Shown: positions 342 through 49,680 of the stretch, in pieces
Layout of the letters: the number at the start of each line of letters is the position of its first letter
Numbering within the stretch: position 1 is the first letter of the stretch
NCBI GenBank assembly: GCA_020073545.1
Contig: JAIQEZ010000019.1
Span: 1-49,680, forward strand
Reading direction: 5' to 3'
From: Terriglobia bacterium
GTDB lineage: Bacteria > Acidobacteriota > Terriglobia > UBA7540
DNA length: 49,680 nucleotides
Made by a program: the position numbers and the translations under genes
The notes under the pieces: generated by a model
Database searches by the model: none
Seen by the model: only the letters and a program-made list of their open reading frames with translations
Told to the model about the DNA's origin: nothing

Positions 342-393
342 AGCGGGTAGCGCGGAGTTGTGCGCACAGCGCACTACTCCGCGGTTCTGCAGG
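342..393. repeat. Partial copy of the double-hairpin repeat found at 44-48 kb
   Basis: The block opens with GCGGGTAGCGCGGAGTT and closes with ACTCCGCGGTTCTGC. It matches the left hairpin of the 138-bp repeats at 44031, 45305 and 46723, with compensating changes in the stem (CGCGGAGT pairs with ACTCCGCG here; CGCAGAGT pairs with ACTCTGCG there). Only the left half is present. Confidence 0.55.
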
Positions 394-2823: not shown

Positions 2824-4389
2824 CTAGCCGTATTCTTTTTTGAGCTTGTAGGTGATGCTGTCCACGAGGGCTTGCCAGCTCGCCTCGATGAGGTTTTCGG
2901 AGACGCCCACGGTTCCCCAGGTGTCGTGGCCGTCGCTGGTTTCGATCAGCACCCGAACCTTGGCGTCGGTGGCTCCTTTGGGGTTTAGCACGCGGACTTT
3001 GTAATCGGTCAAGCGAATGTCCCGGATGCACGGAAAGAAAGTGGTAAGCGATTTCCGCAGGGCCCGGTCCAGGGCGCTCACCGGGCCAACCCCTTCGGCG
3101 GCGGTGTGTTCTTCCTTGCCGTCCACACGCAACTTGATGACGGCCTCCGAGTACGGTTCGTTGACCCCTTTCTTTTCGGTGATGACGCGAAAGCCGTCCA
3201 GCTCAAAGAACTCTTTGGTGTGGTGCACCAGCTTATCGAAGAGGATTTCAAAGGACGCCTCCGCTCCCTCAAACTGGTAGCCGTCGTGTTCCATCTCCTT
3301 GAGCTTCTCCACCACAACCTTGGCGTCGGGAGAGGACTTGTCGATTTTCAGACCTCGCTCTTCGGCCTTGTAGATCACGTTGCTCTTTCCAGATAGCTCC
3401 GAAACCAGGACCCGGCGTTCGTTGCCGACCACGGCGGGGTCCACGTGCTCGTAAGCGGAGGTCTCTTTCATCACCGCGCTCACGTGAATGCCGCCTTTGT
3501 GGGCAAACGCGCTCTTGCCGACGTAGGGCAGATCCTGGCGAGGCAGCAGGTTGGCCAGCTCGCTGACGTAGTGGGAAACTTCCGTGAGGCGTTTGAGGTT
3601 TTCCTTGCCGATCGAGTGCATTCCCAACTTCAACTCGAGATTGGGGATCACGGAGCAAAGGTTGGCGTTCCCGCAGCGTTCTCCATAACCGTTGATCGTC
3701 CCTTGCACGTGGACGGCCCCCTGCTGCACAGCGGCAATGGAGTTGGCCACCGCCATTTCGCAATCATTGTGAGTGTGAATCCCCAAGGGCGTCTTGAGGT
3801 GTTTGGAAGCGGCCTGAAAACGCTCCCGAATGTCGGCGGTCACCGTGCCGCCGTTGGTGTCGCACAACACGATGGTGTCAGCTCCCGCCTCCTCGGCGGC
3901 CTTGAGCGTAGCCAGCGCATAAGCCGAGTCGGCTTTGAAGCCATCAAAGAAATGCTCGGCGTCGTAGATCACTTCCTTTCCCTGGGATTTCAGGAAGGCC
4001 ACGGACTCGCCAATCAGATCGAGGTTTTCCTTGAGGGAAATCCCCAAGGCCACTTTCACATGCAAATCCCAGGTCTTCCCGAAAATGGTCACCACCGGAG
4101 TGTTGGCTTCGATCAGCGCTTGCAGATTCCGATCGTGGGACGCCGTGTGGCGCGGGTGGCGGGTGCTGCCAAACGCCGCGAGCTTGGCATGCTTCAGCTT
4201 GAGTTCCTGGGCACGGGAGTAGAAGGCCACGTCTTTGCTGTTCGAGCCGGGCCAGCCGCCCTCGATGTAGTCCAGTCCCAGATCGTCAAGCTTCTTGACG
4301 ATGTGGAGCTTGTCTTCCAGGGAGAACGAGATGTTTTCGCCTTGCGAGCCGTCGCGGAGGGTAGTGTCGTAGACAAGGATCTTTTTCAT
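2824..4389 (-). CDS. cimA: (R)-citramalate synthase
   Basis: A 521-residue cytosolic enzyme that condenses pyruvate and acetyl-CoA to (R)-citramalate, giving a threonine-independent route to 2-oxobutyrate and isoleucine. The N-terminal TIM barrel shows the metal and substrate motif TTLRDGSQ (9-16), HTHND (205-209) and GYGERCGN (234-241), all typical of the 2-isopropylmalate synthase/homocitrate synthase superfamily. Length and the segment [10 protein letters not shown] point to the CimA branch rather than LeuA. Residues from about 390 to the end form the regulatory LeuA dimerisation domain, which carries isoleucine feedback in relatives. It is a single-gene transcription unit; the upstream region begins at a transposon-like element only 69 bp from the start codon. 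Confidence 0.92.
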
Positions 4390-42354: not shown

Positions 42355-43701
42355 ATGCCTGCAAAGAGACAAGAAGTTAAGACCGAAGAAATCCAGGAAG
42401 AAAAGAGCGAGGAACTGAAAGAAGGTGAAGTCCTCGATATCGGCAAGCTCAAGGAGATGAACATCACCACGCTGACCCAGGTTGCCAAAGACCTGGCCGT
42501 GGTGGGAGCCACCGGCCTGCGCAAACAGGAGCTGATCTTCAAGATTCTCCAGGCGCAGACCGAGAAGAACGGCCTGATCTTCTCGGAGGGTGTGCTCGAG
42601 TGCCTGCCCGACGGTTTCGGATTCCTCCGCGCTCCGGACTACAACTACCTGCCGGGCCCGGACGACATCTACGTCTCGCCTTCGCAGATCCGCAAGTTCG
42701 ACCTGCGCACCGGCGACACGATCTCGGGGCAGATCCGTCCGCCCAAGGAGGGCGAACGCTACTTCGCGCTCATCAAGGTCGAGGCCATCAACTTTGAGCC
42801 GCCCGACGAGGCGCGCAACAAGATCTTCTTTGACAACCTCACGCCCCTCTATCCCCAGCAGCGCATCCACCTCGAGACGATCAAAGACAACATCTCGGCG
42901 CGCGTTCTCGATCTGCTCACGCCCGTCGGCAAAGGCCAGCGCGGCCTCATCGTCTCACCGCCGCGCACCGGCAAGACCATGCTGCTGCAATGCATCGCCA
43001 ACTCCGTGACCACCAACCACCCCGAGATCACCCTCATCGTGCTGCTCATCGACGAGCGGCCCGAGGAAGTCACCGACATGCAGCGCACCGTGAAGGGCGA
43101 GGTCATCAGCTCGACCTTTGACGAGCCTGCCGCCCGGCACGTCCAGGTGGCGGAAATGGTCCTCGAAAAGGCCAAACGGCTGGTCGAGCACAAGCGCGAC
43201 GTGGTGATCCTGCTCGACTCCATCACCCGGCTGGCGCGCGCCTATAACACCGTGGTCCCGCCTTCCGGCAAGGTGCTCTCGGGCGGCGTCGACTCCAACG
43301 CCTTGCAGCGCCCCAAGCGCTTCTTCGGCGCGGCGCGCAATATCGAGGAAGGTGGCAGCCTCACGATTATCGCCACCGCCCTCATCGACACCGGCAGCCG
43401 CATGGACGACGTGATCTTCGAAGAGTTCAAAGGCACCGGTAACATGGAAATCAACCTCGACCGCAAGCTCGTCGACAAGCGCGTTTTCCCGGCCATCGAC
43501 CTCAATAAGTCCGGCACCCGCAAGGAAGAACTGCTCGTGCCCCGCGATGAGTTGAACCGCATTTGGGTCCTGCGCAAAGTCCTGAACCCGCTCTCGCCGG
43601 TGGAATCGATGGAACTCATCATCGACAAACTCGCCAAGAGCAAGTCCAACTCCGAGTTCCTCTCCTCCATGAGCAACGGCGGGGGCACCGGCGGGCGGTA
43701 A
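42355..43701 (+). CDS. rho: Transcription termination factor Rho
   Basis: A 448-residue hexameric RNA helicase. The N-terminal domain has a short acidic Lys/Glu-rich extension (residues 1-30), then [20 protein letters not shown]. The RNA-binding cold-shock-like domain reads [20 protein letters not shown], then [19 protein letters not shown]. The RecA-like motor has Walker A PPRTGKT (202-208), [11 protein letters not shown], Walker [18 protein letters not shown] and the Q/R loops near GALNLQ-type [15 protein letters not shown]. It ends normally. It is a single gene, not part of the proteostasis operon. Confidence 0.96.
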
Positions 43702-44030: not shown

Positions 44031-44168
44031 GCGGGTAGCGGAGAGTTAGGCGCGCAGCGACTTACTCTGTGGTTCCGAACATGATAAACGCCGACCTGTT
44101 TAACAACACACGACGACCGAAGCCGCAGAGTAATCCCGCTCGGAGCGGGATTACTCTGCGCTACCTGC
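44031..44168. repeat. Double-hairpin repeat, copy 1
   Basis: A 138-bp unit bounded by near-perfect inverted ends GCGGGTAGCG and CGCTACCTGC. The left half forms a stem of a CGCAGAGT-type box with ACTCTGCG-type bases. A 50-bp spacer contains TTCCGAACATGATAAACG and GACCTGTTTAAC. The right half is a 17-bp perfect hairpin (CGCAGAGTAATCCCGCT with its complement). Two more full copies and a degenerate one follow. It lies 51 bp past the stop of the DUF4238 gene (minus strand). Confidence 0.8.
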
Positions 44169-44219
44169 GGCTAATTCCAGGGACGAATTGAGCGCGGCCA
44201 CTCGCGATCACTCGCTAAG

Positions 44220-45185
44220 TCAGTTCAATGGTTGCGGCTTGGACATAAATGCATTCTTCCCAGGTTGCACTTTGCAGCCGCGCTCATCGAAAAGACGTGC
44301 AATCCTTCTATGGCCTTCAGAAGAGTATAGGTATCTGGAGGCAGTCGCCATTATCAAATCGTTTATCTCTTTTACTCTCCCCTCTTCCGCAATGCGACCC
44401 CCGGCTTGAATCCCTCGTCTCATCCTGAGGCACGCTCTCTTGTTCAGCGGGAAGTACACCTCCACATCCGGCCACCCAAAACCCATACCGAGTGTAGCCT
44501 GCCCCTTCGCATCAGGCCGGATAGTGTAAACCGGAGAATCCGAAGTCAGGAAGAACCTTCCCTCCGGGGCGTGAAATACCTGCATCCCGTAGGTTTCCAA
44601 CTCTCTAATGGCACTGAGGGCGGTGACGAACATTGCTGTAAGATTGAATGCCATTGATTTCTGGACAAGCTCGTAGTCGCCTTTGAGAATAAATTGGCGC
44701 AACTCCTCGGCTTCGACCGTCAGAGATTTTCCTGTCGACCTTTCAACGTCTGCACACAATTGATGGAACTTCTGCTCGTCTTGGGCAAGCTGGAGCTGTG
44801 TTTCCCTGGTGAGCTGCGCTGCGATCCTGTCAAGATTCTCCCTCCAACTCGGTACTCGCGCAAACATGAAACCGACAAAGATGACCAAATGACCCGCATT
44901 CTCCGGTGTAAGCACATACTTTGGGTTTGCGAGCTTTCGAATAATAGGCGCAACTCGGGATTCGATTTCCTCTAATTTATTCTCGGCGGTTTCGTCTCGA
45001 TCTCCTTTTTCGGTGTGGGAGTAGTAGTCGGGCCGATGCGCCTCTAGCCTCGGTTTTGATGCTCTGATCGGCTTGAACCTTTCACATACCCAGAGAACGC
45101 CCTCCTTATCAGTGAAGCCCTTCAGATAGAACTTCGGAATGTAATGTTGGTCTTTAGCTTCGGGAAGTTGTTGGCTGGCCATCAT
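44220..45185 (-). CDS. DUF4238-family protein
   Basis: A 321-residue protein. KDQHYIPKFYLKGFTDKEGV is the family hallmark ('QHY.P..YL..F'). VCERFKPIRASKPRLEAH and PDYYSHTEKGDRDETAENKL, EEIESRVAPIIRKLANPK follow as in other members. A helical middle (residues 100-190) has MFARVPSWRENLDRI. A C-terminal 'SDSPV' segment (FFLTSDSPVYTIRP) and FPLNKRACLRM match the conserved last third. The biochemical function is unknown; members are often found in defence or mobile contexts. It is isolated between two copies of the double-hairpin repeat. Confidence 0.8.
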   Translation of the reverse strand: MMASQQLPEAKDQHYIPKFYLKGFTDKEGVLWVCERFKPIRASKPRLEAHRPDYYSHTEKGDRDETAENKLEEIESRVAPIIRKLANPKYVLTPENAGHLVIFVGFMFARVPSWRENLDRIAAQLTRETQLQLAQDEQKFHQLCADVERSTGKSLTVEAEELRQFILKGDYELVQKSMAFNLTAMFVTALSAIRELETYGMQVFHAPEGRFFLTSDSPVYTIRPDAKGQATLGMGFGWPDVEVYFPLNKRACLRMRRGIQAGGRIAEEGRVKEINDLIMATASRYLYSSEGHRRIARLFDERGCKVQPGKNAFMSKPQPLN

Positions 45186-45304
45186 GGTGCCTTAGCGAGT
45201 CAAGCCGAATTGATCAGGGCAGCGTGCTTTGAATAGTTGCTGTGATAGGATAACAAAGATTTCGCTGGCATTGGAGCAGGTAGATTTCCTCATGAAATTC
45301 AAGA

Positions 45305-45443
45305 GCGGGGTAGCGCAGAGTTAGGCGCGCAGCGACTTACTCTGCGGTTCCGAACATGATAAACGTCGACCTGTTTAACAACACACGACGACCAAAGCCA
45401 CAGAGTAATCCCGCTCGGAGCGGGATAACTCTGCGCTACCTGC
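45305..45443. repeat. Double-hairpin repeat, copy 2
   Basis: A 139-bp copy almost identical to 44031-44168, with one extra G in the left end and one mismatch in the right stem (GGGATAACTC against GGGATTACTC). Spacer bases GAACATGATAAACGTCGACC are conserved. It stands between the DUF4238 gene and a small plus-strand gene. Confidence 0.85.
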
Positions 45444-45544
45444 TGCTCCAAGGCGGTTGGATTATGCTCTTGACCCGACAGCGAGGCTAGACGGAAAATG
45501 AGTTAGTGGTTCCCCCACTACGAGTTCGGGAACAGAGGTGAGCG

Positions 45545-45805
45545 ATGAAAGGTCCCATATGCGAAGAATCCCCGGAGGTATTCCGAAAAGAGTGGGCACT
45601 CAGAGACTTGCGTGGGGCTGCCGCGAGTTGTGTTCGGAGAACGAAAAGTTGCTCTGTTAAGCAAGTGCTTGGAATGGAAAGACGCTCTAGGAGTTACGGA
45701 CTATCAAGAGAGCAGACTCACGCCGCGATTCATGAGGGCATGGCTGGGGTTCCAAACCCCAACCCTGGAAAAGTCAGAGCGTTAAGGAAGCAGCTCGCAG
45801 AATAG
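45545..45805 (+). CDS. Small hypothetical protein
   Basis: An 86-residue protein: MKGPICEESPEVFRKEWALR, LRGAAASCVRRTKSCSVKQV, then GLSREQTHAAIHEGMAGVPN. It is supported by an AGGTGAG ribosome-binding site three bases upstream and by an intrinsic terminator beginning one base past the stop codon. No family is recognised. The protein is basic and contains three Cys. It is the only gene here with a clean terminator. Confidence 0.6.
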   Translation: MKGPICEESPEVFRKEWALRDLRGAAASCVRRTKSCSVKQVLGMERRSRSYGLSREQTHAAIHEGMAGVPNPNPGKVRALRKQLAE

Positions 45806-45834
45806 AAAAGCCCCGATGCCAGTCGGGGCTTTTT
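45806..45834 (+). terminator. Rho-independent terminator
   Basis: AAAAGCCCCGA (45806-45816) pairs with TCGGGGCTTTT (45823-45833) over a 6-base loop and runs into a T tract. It starts one base after the 45805 stop codon, so it terminates the small upstream gene. Confidence 0.85.
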
Positions 45835-45904
45835 CAAACCGTTGGGCTCGACACCCAACCGGTAAGAGATATGCGTGTCGAGCGCAAGCTGAAACTGGCT
45901 CCCC

Positions 45905-46714
45905 ATGTCTTATTTCCGTCTGGTTACCACGAGAGCATTCGCAGAGACAAAGTCGTTCTGGAACGTCCATAGGATTTGGGCGCTTGTCTCGGTTCCTGCT
46001 AGCGGCTTTCTCTTGAGAGTGCTTGTTAGGGGCAGAAGCCAAATGGGAGGCTGGCAAGAGGTTATTCTCTTCGTCGTTTTCGGCTTCATTGTTTCCTGGG
46101 TGGGAAGTTATTGCATAAACCTGGTGCGGGTTCCAGGCATGGTCCACCGGGAACAGAACCGCAGCATACAAGCCAAGAATGCAGAAATTGAGCGAAGGAC
46201 CAAGGAGCTTCAGGGCTTGAAAGCTAAGGTATCGACGATTCCTTTTTCCTTCCAAGCCGAGATAGACAGAATCAATCCACCGATTTCCGTGTGGGCCAGC
46301 GACACGTTGATAGGCGGCGGTCCAGATCGTCAACCCATCGAGGTTCCTCGGGTCGTTTTGACGGTATGGAAGAAGCCGCAGTCGCAAGACTTGGAGGTTA
46401 CGATCACCAATTGTCGCCTTGGGAACCTGCGAATTCCTGCGTCCCAACCTGATTTTTCGGTCCGCCGGATCATTAAAGGCGAAGACGCGGTAGATGTCAC
46501 TGAGGAGCTGGTGAGGTTTGTTGCTGGTGACCCCATTAACCGACAGAGGCTCCTGAGATTCTCTCAGGACGTGAAAGTTGTGCTCGGCTATGAAGTCCTT
46601 TCCACGCCAAGCGAAGCCAGCACTTGTTTCCGAATGAACGGGAAGCTCAACGCAGGTAGATTGCAGCTGGAGATTGAGCAGCTACCAAATCCTTCGAGCT
46701 CCATTACCGGGTGA
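45905..46714 (+). CDS. Hypothetical membrane protein with coiled coil
   Basis: A 269-residue protein. Two hydrophobic segments near residues 24-40 (IWALVSVPASGFLLRVL) and 52-72 (EVILFVVFGFIVSWVGSY) are followed by a predicted coiled coil (NAEIERRTKELQGLKAKV). The C-terminal domain of about 150 residues has IEVPRVVLTVWKKPQSQDLE and VTITNCRLGNLRIPASQPDF and looks beta-rich. The coiled coil and C-terminal domain should be on one side of the membrane. No family is recognised. No convincing ribosome-binding site precedes ATG 45905. It lies between the terminator and repeat copy 3. Confidence 0.55.
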   Translation: MSYFRLVTTRAFAETKSFWNVHRIWALVSVPASGFLLRVLVRGRSQMGGWQEVILFVVFGFIVSWVGSYCINLVRVPGMVHREQNRSIQAKNAEIERRTKELQGLKAKVSTIPFSFQAEIDRINPPISVWASDTLIGGGPDRQPIEVPRVVLTVWKKPQSQDLEVTITNCRLGNLRIPASQPDFSVRRIIKGEDAVDVTEELVRFVAGDPINRQRLLRFSQDVKVVLGYEVLSTPSEASTCFRMNGKLNAGRLQLEIEQLPNPSSSITG

Positions 46715-46722
46715 GGTCGATA

Positions 46723-46860
46723 GCGGGTAGCGCAGAGTTGGGCGCGCAGCGATTTACTCTGCGGTTCCGAACATGATAAACGTCGACCTGTTTAACCACA
46801 CACGACGACCAAAGCCGCAGAGTATTCTCGCTCGAAGCGGGATTACTCTGCGCTACCTGC
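46723..46860. repeat. Double-hairpin repeat, copy 3
   Basis: A 138-bp copy. It starts GCGGGTAGCGCAGAGTTGGG and ends GGGATTACTCTGCGCTACC plus TGC. The spacer reads GAACATGATAAACGTCGACC as in copy 2; the right stem has two changes in its left arm. It starts 8 bp after the stop codon of the coiled-coil membrane gene. Confidence 0.85.
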
Positions 46861-46926
46861 TTTGAAACCTGAAGTGTTAATATTCTGATTTGGCGGCAGT
46901 TATGGCTGCTAACTAAGGAATGGCAT

Positions 46927-47835
46927 ATGGTCGATACTGGGGGAAGGTGGTGGAAGAATCCGCCACCTTGGTTGCCGTGGATTGTGGCTGCGCTGACGCT
47001 CGTAGCTGCAATATTTCAGGTGATTGGTCCCATTAAGCCAGAGCGACTGAGCAAATTCCCTGACTTTGTTGATTTGGTGTTTCGTTTTCTTCTCAAATAT
47101 AGTATTTACATCGCCCTTGGATTTGCGTTTCTGCTTGTTTATTGGATGCGCCGTTACGTTTTTCGAGCATTGGTTTGGGCAAAGGAATGGCTTTATCTTC
47201 GGCCGCTTGTTTTTCTTCTCAGGCCAGCCGTTCAAAGGATAGTAGAGAGATCGGGGCTCCCTGTTGTGTCGCAAGTCACATTCGCCGGTGGAGGGATGCC
47301 AATCGACAAAGCATCCGTCTCGGCAATGACCATTGAGGGGAGTGTCCCTGGCTGGAAAATTGTTGGCAACTGGGAGGTTCAGGAGAAGGAAATAGAGAAC
47401 TGGGAATTTGGACTTGACTGGATACGCGGCAAGAACTCTGGGACTGTGCTGTGGCAAGAACATCTTCCAAATACAGGGAGAATCAGATTTGAGGCGCGTC
47501 TGGTCGAGGACCTCGGCAGCGATGAAATTGATGTGCTGGTCGGCGATTCAATGGCGCTTTACTATTCAGCAGGCGTTCGCCTCGACCATATGACCGACGA
47601 CCTCACCAGGGACCGCAATAAGAACATGGTGGCGTGGCCGAAACCGCAACTAGGGCAATGGTATAGATACATCGTCGCGAAAACGAATGACAAATGCATA
47701 CTGATGATTGATGGACAGCGCGTCATGGACATCCCGTGGGATCGTGGAAAAACAAGTTTCAGAGGTAGGATAGGGTTTGCGCATTGGCATAATCGAATCG
47801 AATTCAGAAACGTGCATATTGAGAAGCTTCCCTGA
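46927..47835 (+). CDS. Hypothetical membrane protein with LamG/DUF1080-like domain
   Basis: A 302-residue protein. Two transmembrane segments are at about 16-33 (LPWIVAALTLVAAIFQVI) and 55-75 (LKYSIYIALGFAFLLVYWM). The C-terminal 190 residues carry GRIRFEARLVEDLGSDEIDV, LGQWYRYIVAKTNDKCILMI and DGQRVMDIPWDRGKTSFRGR, then IGFAHWHNRIEFRNVHIEKL. This is the pattern of concanavalin-like 'W..Y.......ING..V........G.IGF......IEFRNV.I..L' domains used for carbohydrate or ligand binding. The ATG has AAGGAATGG upstream. It lies between repeat copies 3 and 4. Confidence 0.65.
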   Translation: MVDTGGRWWKNPPPWLPWIVAALTLVAAIFQVIGPIKPERLSKFPDFVDLVFRFLLKYSIYIALGFAFLLVYWMRRYVFRALVWAKEWLYLRPLVFLLRPAVQRIVERSGLPVVSQVTFAGGGMPIDKASVSAMTIEGSVPGWKIVGNWEVQEKEIENWEFGLDWIRGKNSGTVLWQEHLPNTGRIRFEARLVEDLGSDEIDVLVGDSMALYYSAGVRLDHMTDDLTRDRNKNMVAWPKPQLGQWYRYIVAKTNDKCILMIDGQRVMDIPWDRGKTSFRGRIGFAHWHNRIEFRNVHIEKLP

Positions 47836-48284
47836 GTTCGAATATTGCCGCCCGCCCTCTCTCGTCAAAGCTGGTTCGAAGACGGAGAAGTAACAAAGGA
47901 AGAGACAGCTTGTAGCCACGGTCAGCGCCTCGCTGACCGTGGGTTCTTGTCCGTGGGAAGAGCGGGTAGCGCAGAGTTGGTCTTCAACTCTGCGGCTCTA
48001 ACCGTCGGGGATCGAAAAGCCGCAGACTTACACACCAAGCAGGTGGCGCAGAGTGAGGCGCGGCAGCGTGTTACTCTGCGGCCCTTGGTTGCGGTTCGTC
48101 GCCACGCCAGTGCCTCAAACCTCGTACAATAGTGAATATTGGACAACTACGAAACTCCCTAAAGCATATAAGCCGCAGAGTTTGAAATACCCAAACTCTG
48201 CGCTGCCCGCTCGCGCCAAATCAGTACCCTAGCTGTGGAGCAACCCCCGGGGGTACGGAATCACAGAAGTCGTTCGGGCGGGCC
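47836..48284. other. Intergenic region with a degenerate double-hairpin repeat
   Basis: The region contains a hairpin GGTCAGCGCCTCGCTGACC (47920-47938) and the degenerate copy 4 of the repeat. No gene is supported. Confidence 0.5.
47962..48210. repeat. Double-hairpin repeat, degenerate copy 4
   Basis: It starts GCGGGTAGCGCAGAGTTGG and contains AACTCTGCGG, CCGCAGACTT, GGTGGCGCAGAGTGAGGC and finally AACTCTGCGCTGCCCGC. At least two units appear nested or rearranged. The right end CGCTGCCCGC is a variant of CGCTACCTGC. Confidence 0.55.
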
Positions 48285-49460: not shown

Positions 49461-49680
49461 GTTTAACAGTTTGCTGAAAAAGTCTGATTTTTTGCTTTAC
49501 TAAGCATATTAATTCGGGTATAACTCGTATTGCTTATTCTAAATGGAATACGAGGAGAAATCCCATGCGTGGTGAAGACCTTCAGCAAAGTGCTTTGTTT
49601 AGTTACCTTTCTCCCGAGCAGCGGGTCCCTAAGGATCATCCTTTGCGGAAGCTGCTCCCCCGGGTCGATGCCGCTTTGGC
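49461..49680 (+). mobile_element. IS5/IS1182-type insertion sequence, 5' end (cut by window edge)
   Basis: The probable left end GTTTAACAGTTTGCTGAAAA begins the element, followed by an AT-rich stretch (TTGCTTATTCTAAAT) that may be its promoter. The transposase gene starts at 49565 and runs off the window. Confidence 0.55.
49565..49680 (+). CDS. IS5/IS1182-family transposase, N-terminal fragment
   Basis: A gene open to the window edge. It reads MRGEDLQQSALFSYLSPEQR and then VPKDHPLRKLLPRVDAAL. This is the standard opening of IS1182-type (DUF772/IS5-like) transposases, 'F.Y....RIP.DHPLR.I...VD.AL'. The AATACGAGGAG upstream gives a good ribosome-binding site. The DDE domain lies outside the window. 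Confidence 0.8.
   Translation, partial: MRGEDLQQSALFSYLSPEQRVPKDHPLRKLLPRVDAAL

Follow-up and report, generated by a model that had tools for sequence, protein, structure and literature searches.

A clustered 138-bp repeat between orphan genes of a Terriglobia bacterium, very probably a REPIN of the RAYT system

In the 49,680-nucleotide stretch of DNA from a soil Terriglobia bacterium analysed here (the window), several unrelated genes downstream of rho are separated from one another by copies of a 138-bp repeat that folds into two hairpins. This raises the question of whether the repeat delimits exchangeable gene cassettes, as attC sites do in integrons, or is a mobile repeat that happened to land between genes; the first-pass annotation had set out both possibilities. 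Our analysis indicates that the repeat is very probably a REPIN (also termed head-head REP heterodimer or BIME-like element), that is, an inverted pair of GTAG-REP sequences forming a miniature, non-autonomous transposon that belongs to the RAYT/TnpA_REP (HUH-Y1) system. This reading is based on the anatomy of the unit, the conservation of its stems, its distribution across the family, its linkage to RAYT genes and to deleted RAYT units in relatives, and the presence of solitary copies. It is a known kind of element in an unusual local arrangement.

Anatomy of the repeat

Three full copies were identified on the forward strand at positions 44031..44168, 45305..45443 and 46723..46860. They measure 138-139 bp, with the longer length of the second copy due to one additional G, and their pairwise identity is 93-94%. 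As first annotated, they lie between unrelated genes; the sequences flanking the three copies are unrelated, and no repetition extends outside the unit. The left half reads AGCGG-GTAG-CGCAGAGT-loop-ACTCTGCGG, and after the spacer the right half follows in inverse as CCGCAGAGT-loop-ACTCTGCG-CTAC-CTGC. The two hairpins are 37 and 41 nt long and correspond to REP A and inverted REP B at 44035-44071 and 44124-44164 in copy 1, 45310-45346 and 45399-45439 in copy 2, and 46727-46763 and 46816-46856 in copy 3. Both hairpins are built on the boxes originally described; in copy 1 the stem of the first is partly decayed (CGGAGAGT/ACTCTGTG). The spacer, earlier given as an invariant 50 bp, measures 52 nt and is nearly, but not completely, invariant. 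A GT[AG]G tetranucleotide is present 5' of the imperfect palindrome, and a C|T step, read from the flanks, occurs at five of the six ends of the three copies. The two ends of the unit can also pair with each other to give a single long hairpin, and folding of the 138-mer as single-stranded DNA yielded a z-score of -6.0. An arrangement of GTAG plus an 8-bp stem at both outer edges, in inverted pairs, was seen in every genome looked at. An Rfam scan of the window matched only a tRNA, so the repeat is not a known RNA family.

Two other origins for the copies were tried and rejected. Tandem duplication of a gene together with its repeat was ruled out by the unrelated flanks, and terminal repeats of a larger element by the common orientation of the three copies, their irregular spacing and their unrelated cargo.

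Further REP sequences were identified in the window, where the core GTAGCGCAGAGT occurs 19 times with up to two mismatches compared with 3.3 expected (none of 100 shuffles reached 19). The region 47962-48210, annotated as one degenerate copy, does hold degenerate repeat sequence, but as at least two decayed tandem REPINs: a short one at 47966..48038 (+), in which the GTAG hairpin (47966-47994) is followed by an inverted partner that is truncated and whose right end, read from the sequence, is approximate, and another at 48043..48206 (+), with a GTGG hairpin (48043-48080) and an inverted hairpin (48174-48206). A solitary REP at 343..387 (+; GTAGCGCGGAGT...ACTCCGCG, hairpin 347-383), found by the REP search and the covariance model, is a REPIN remnant in which A-to-G and T-to-C changes preserve the stem, in agreement with the half copy and compensatory changes noted earlier near position 342. 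At 47912..47942 (+) lies a REP from a different family (GTAG-CCACGGTCAG...CTGACCGTGG), of the type that flanks a host RAYT on contig C240; with its ends GTAGCCACGGTCAG...CTGACCGTGG, it is cognate to the TnpA_REP-like gene on that contig.

To describe the family we took 12 units to construct a covariance model, which returned 18 matches in the host genome and matches in 32 of the 39 genomes of the same family, with a maximum of 62 per genome. In a sequence-based MAFFT alignment, 90.8% of cells were paired, compared with 36-52% in slid controls; five pairs carried double changes, and 12 cells were doubly changed compared with 3.5 in shuffled alignments (0/500). As the set comprises 12 partly related sequences, this covariation is indicative rather than conclusive that both stems are supported by compensatory changes. 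These results bear out the earlier suggestion that the repeat belongs to a family spread through the genome whose stems are under structural constraint. Among the 80 matches listed for the exact REP hairpin pattern, 79 were labelled Acidobacteria/Terriglobia and one Chloroflexi. The latter (JAMCWQ010000047.1, L317), the only Chloroflexi-labelled contig with the REP among the matches listed, is possibly mis-binned or a case of horizontal transfer.

A low-GC island at the rho-cmk junction

The order rho-cmk-mutL is conserved in relatives and interrupted in the window, where rho (42355..43701, +) is directly followed on its 3' side by the repeat-bearing block instead of cmk-mutL. The host cmk gene lies on a separate contig and is preceded by another copy of the IS found at the end of the window. 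The IS end at 49464-49680 corresponds to positions 1829-2045 of L187 (G000:C83); the window contig stops inside the IS, and the C83 copy adjoins cmk. Between rho and the contig end there is no integrase-like ORF, only the IS at the contig end.

The cargo begins with a gene for a 321-aa DUF4238 protein (44220..45185, -; 50.9% GC), for which the initial family call was upheld (Pfam E=7e-38) and which also has a weak PADLOC match to DUF4238-Pers (E=2e-8). It is followed by an 86-aa ORF (45545..45805, +) and a gene for a 269-aa orphan protein (45905..46714, +), and then by a gene for a 302-aa protein (46927..47835, +) whose C-terminal part matches PF06439 (E=2e-7), as expected from its initial LamG-like assignment. 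A Pfam search gave no match for the 86-, 269- and 364-aa proteins. When the orphan genes were sought elsewhere as mobile cassettes, relatives of the 302-aa protein were found in 0/395 other Acidobacteriota genomes searched, and the DUF4238 gene was found once, in a distant genome among ~400 phylum genomes searched, with no REP nearby. The cargo between the REPINs is 50-52% GC compared with 59-61% for lon and rho, and does not occur in the rho regions of relatives; in the ~400 phylum genomes it is nearly absent. Taken together, the low GC content, the absence from relatives' rho regions and the near-absence in the phylum identify the block as an acquired island, specific to this lineage, that interrupts the otherwise conserved rho-cmk junction.

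Linkage to RAYT transposases and origin of the unit

REPINs were defined by Bertels and Rainey in 2011 (PMC3116915), and GTAG repeats, including head-head dimers with GTAG on the outside, were described by Di Nocera in 2013 (PMC3733652). The unit shares with these elements a GTAG foot beside a stem-loop, an inverted pair and a conserved 20-100-nt spacer, together with intergenic location, multiple copies and RAYT association. It differs in its REP sequence, in its long and unequal hairpins and in the clustering of copies one per gene. Its host phylum is also outside the GTAG-bearing phyla listed in 2013, a survey in which Acidobacteria are mentioned for TIR-flanked transposases (PMC3733652). 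The REPIN/RAYT system is widespread in uncultured Terriglobia-like Acidobacteriota, beyond the GTAG-REP hosts of 2013. Dispersed, mainly extragenic copies were found at the level of the family, with the near-identical subtype confined to one host locus. All REPIN features that can be read from sequence were found, and relatives G036, G037 and G027 carry cognate RAYT genes with the same REP on their flanks.

In G036:C16, a Y1 transposase gene is flanked on both sides by GTAG-CGCAGAGT-type REP in a perfect 42-bp inverted GAGCGGGTAGCGCAGAGTTGTTCTGTAACTCTGCGGCTTTTTG. Window-type REP also lies on both sides of Y1 genes in G037:C59 and G027:C22, and on one side in G027:C25, G037:C80 and G002:C621, C97 and C635. 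Overall, 8 of the 31 Y1 genes examined had window-type REP within ~1 kb, compared with ~2% expected (P ~1e-7), a background roughly estimated from the density of REPs. In these RAYTs the Y1_Tnp domain carries HUH, W and Y..N motifs, and their nearest solved relative is TnpA_REP. The G037:C59 protein matched the solved E. coli TnpA_REP structure (PDB 4er8, E=4.9e-15) and carries HUH (DHWH), WQ and YIHLNP motifs. Both the HUH, WQ and Y..NP core and the flanking of the gene by its own REP type are as in the E. coli enzyme. The DHWH/WQ/YIHLNP set matches exactly none of the listed RAYT subclasses (classes in PMC6006769). TIRYT or class 3 Y1 elements of the same phylum, for example in Solibacter and Koribacter, likewise combine Y1 relatives with hairpin repeats, but they carry either CnGA feet or terminal inverted repeats that are unrelated, where a GTAG foot is present here, and show Y....Q where this RAYT has Y..N (PMC3733652, PMC6006769).

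Different REP types, namely GTAG-CGCGGACC, GCTGG-CGCAGA, GTAG-CGGCGAT and GTAG-CCACGGTCAG, flank further RAYTs of these genomes, as would be expected if each RAYT has its own type. The Y1 genes that score highest against Pfam (e.g. C178) are IS200-like, and no REP lies close to them. The host genome, a fragmented 5.28-Mb MAG that is 95.5% complete, has nine Y1 genes, and no RAYT with CGCAGAGT-type REP on its flanks was found among them. Dense repeats of another REP type (GTAGCGGCGATTTTACATCGCC) surround a host RAYT at ~5000-6000 of L134 (G000:C216). A REPIN sits in a conserved gene pair in two gp13 Acidobacteria MAGs (L281, L313), where the host has a Y1 transposase gene (L128, G000:C1); the pair is a possible insertion hot spot.

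Examination of G033 revealed an analogous unit of 340 bp, the interior of which is a RAYT reading frame lacking its middle, with residues 1-66, which extend slightly beyond the HUH motif, fused to the final 11. Such REPINs are present in L403 (G033:C66) at 1524-1861, 2307-2650 and 3532-3869, and a 611-bp REP-RAYT-REP unit was found in L416 (G033:C157) at 515-1125; the 611-bp unit shares 94-97% identity with the 340-bp units across the aligned 5' portion of the gene and the REP next to it. As the 340-bp units are deleted RAYTs, REPIN-like elements in this family are internal deletion derivatives of RAYT units, direct evidence that repeats of this sort can be miniature transposons. The REP, deleted RAYT, REP unit is a clear intermediate for the origin of REPINs from RAYT transposons. 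The RAYT unit of G033 is present in several copies, whereas according to PMC6006769 REPtrons do not transpose as a unit. Multiple RAYT copies also occur on one G033 contig, compared with the usual single-copy RAYT.

In the proposed mechanism, the RAYT would bind the GTAG foot and hairpin in single-stranded DNA and, guided by GTAG, would probably cut at the CT marking the element ends (AGCGGGTAG...CTACCCGCT), as suggested by the C|T steps at five of the six ends and by data on TnpA_REP of E. coli and others (PMC8266576). The excised unit would be pasted elsewhere, mostly into intergenic DNA, so that copies would come to lie between genes without carrying genes. In this lineage such mobilisation would presumably act in trans. 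The cluster in the window may reflect repeated local insertion into, or import with, the low-GC island between rho and cmk.

Alternative explanations and one-repeat-per-gene arrays

What speaks against the REPIN reading is the presence of three near-identical copies at a single locus, as trans-mobilised REPINs usually scatter; the failure to find a RAYT with window-type REP on its flanks among the nine Y1 genes of the MAG, or an exact empty site for the window copies, also counts against it. Copies of 93-94% identity were found in the host at this locus only, the next copy in the genome being ~60% identical over its full length, and under uniform placement three near-identical copies at one locus have a chance of ~1e-6. 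Import along with the island, or local spread, would best account for the tight cluster. That the island brought the cluster with it from a donor with many copies of this subtype, the copies being immobile in this genome, is a serious possibility that we hold to be slightly short of probable: the subtype is restricted to the locus, the island is low in GC and lineage-specific, and a cognate RAYT was not found in the MAG, but related subtypes occur elsewhere in the host genome and in genus mates, and a RAYT could be missed in a MAG that is incomplete and fragmented. It is highly improbable that the repeats are selected, non-mobile bidirectional transcription terminators or mRNA-stabilising hairpins. 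The strong hairpins with compensatory changes and the intergenic placement are consistent with such a role; however, no T-tract follows the hairpins in the window sequence, and termination would leave the conserved non-pairing GTAG foot, the spacer and the RAYT linkage unexplained. A secondary function of REPINs as terminators or stabilisers is possible.

The remaining alternative is a cassette array in which REPINs serve as sites of homologous or RAYT-assisted recombination, and single genes are gained or lost with one REPIN each; we regard this as unlikely. The one-repeat-per-gene pattern itself is genuine. It also appears in other genera, in at least three further genomes, with non-repeated flanks and roughly one REPIN for each small gene in G036:C3 (L103, three REPINs), G033:C66 (L403, four units) and G019:C259 (L299, four REPINs); a cluster in G001:C18 is similar. 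The sporadic occurrence of the window cargo in the phylum also favours cassettes, as does the synteny between G036 and G038, which ends exactly at a REPIN edge (L103 10169 versus L210). At L103/L210, L122/L214 and L165/L220, homology stops at or near a REPIN and the far side differs, a pattern compatible with insertion into rapidly changing sites as well as with recombination at REPINs. Against cassettes, many REPINs are solitary between conserved genes, the array shows no integrase or dedicated recombinase, no pair of strains was found with a gene exchanged between REPINs, and islands are expected to gather insertions and breakpoints regardless. In comparisons of conserved-gene gaps, the intervals in L269 and L161 measured 273 and 143 bp, a difference of about one REPIN with no gene gained, and the gap with a REPIN in L167 likewise showed no gene gain compared with the gap in another species that has none (L216). 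The exact junctions at these two sites are not visible because the intergenic DNA is too diverged; for the window copies, no exact empty site at nucleotide resolution was found in relatives, as the island has no counterpart there.

The likeness to integron attC arrays, one imperfect palindrome per gene, is in look only: the array has no integrase and mixed gene orientation, and REPINs also occur alone, both elsewhere in the host genome and in relatives, including between conserved genes and beside RAYTs. With these solitary copies, the two gaps without gene gain and the REP/RAYT membership of the repeat, the attC-like cassette reading of the first-pass annotation is not supported, and its other option, a transposable repeat landing between genes, is supported.

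Beyond the very probable REPIN identity of the repeat, a broader proposal is that REPINs in this Acidobacteriota family have been co-opted as uniform boundaries of gene-by-gene immunity, toxin and defence arrays, with recombination between near-identical REPINs swapping single genes on a RAYT-derived, integrase-free cassette platform. We consider this quite unlikely, and no relevant paper emerged when the literature was searched for REPINs in connection with defence islands or with toxin/immunity arrays. The recurrent one-REPIN-per-gene arrays in accessory islands allow a test of whether repeats of this kind influence the turnover of defence islands. As to the neighbours of these arrays of near-identical REPINs, the one in G019:C259 (L404/L299) adjoins an Imm-NTF2-2 (NTF2-fold) immunity gene, the cluster in G001:C18 (L402) lies among a ParE toxin gene and a HEC-01-like AAA/DUF4276 candidate defence pair, and the array in G036:C3 (L103) has a small TPR-like gene and an IS110-like ORF as neighbours.
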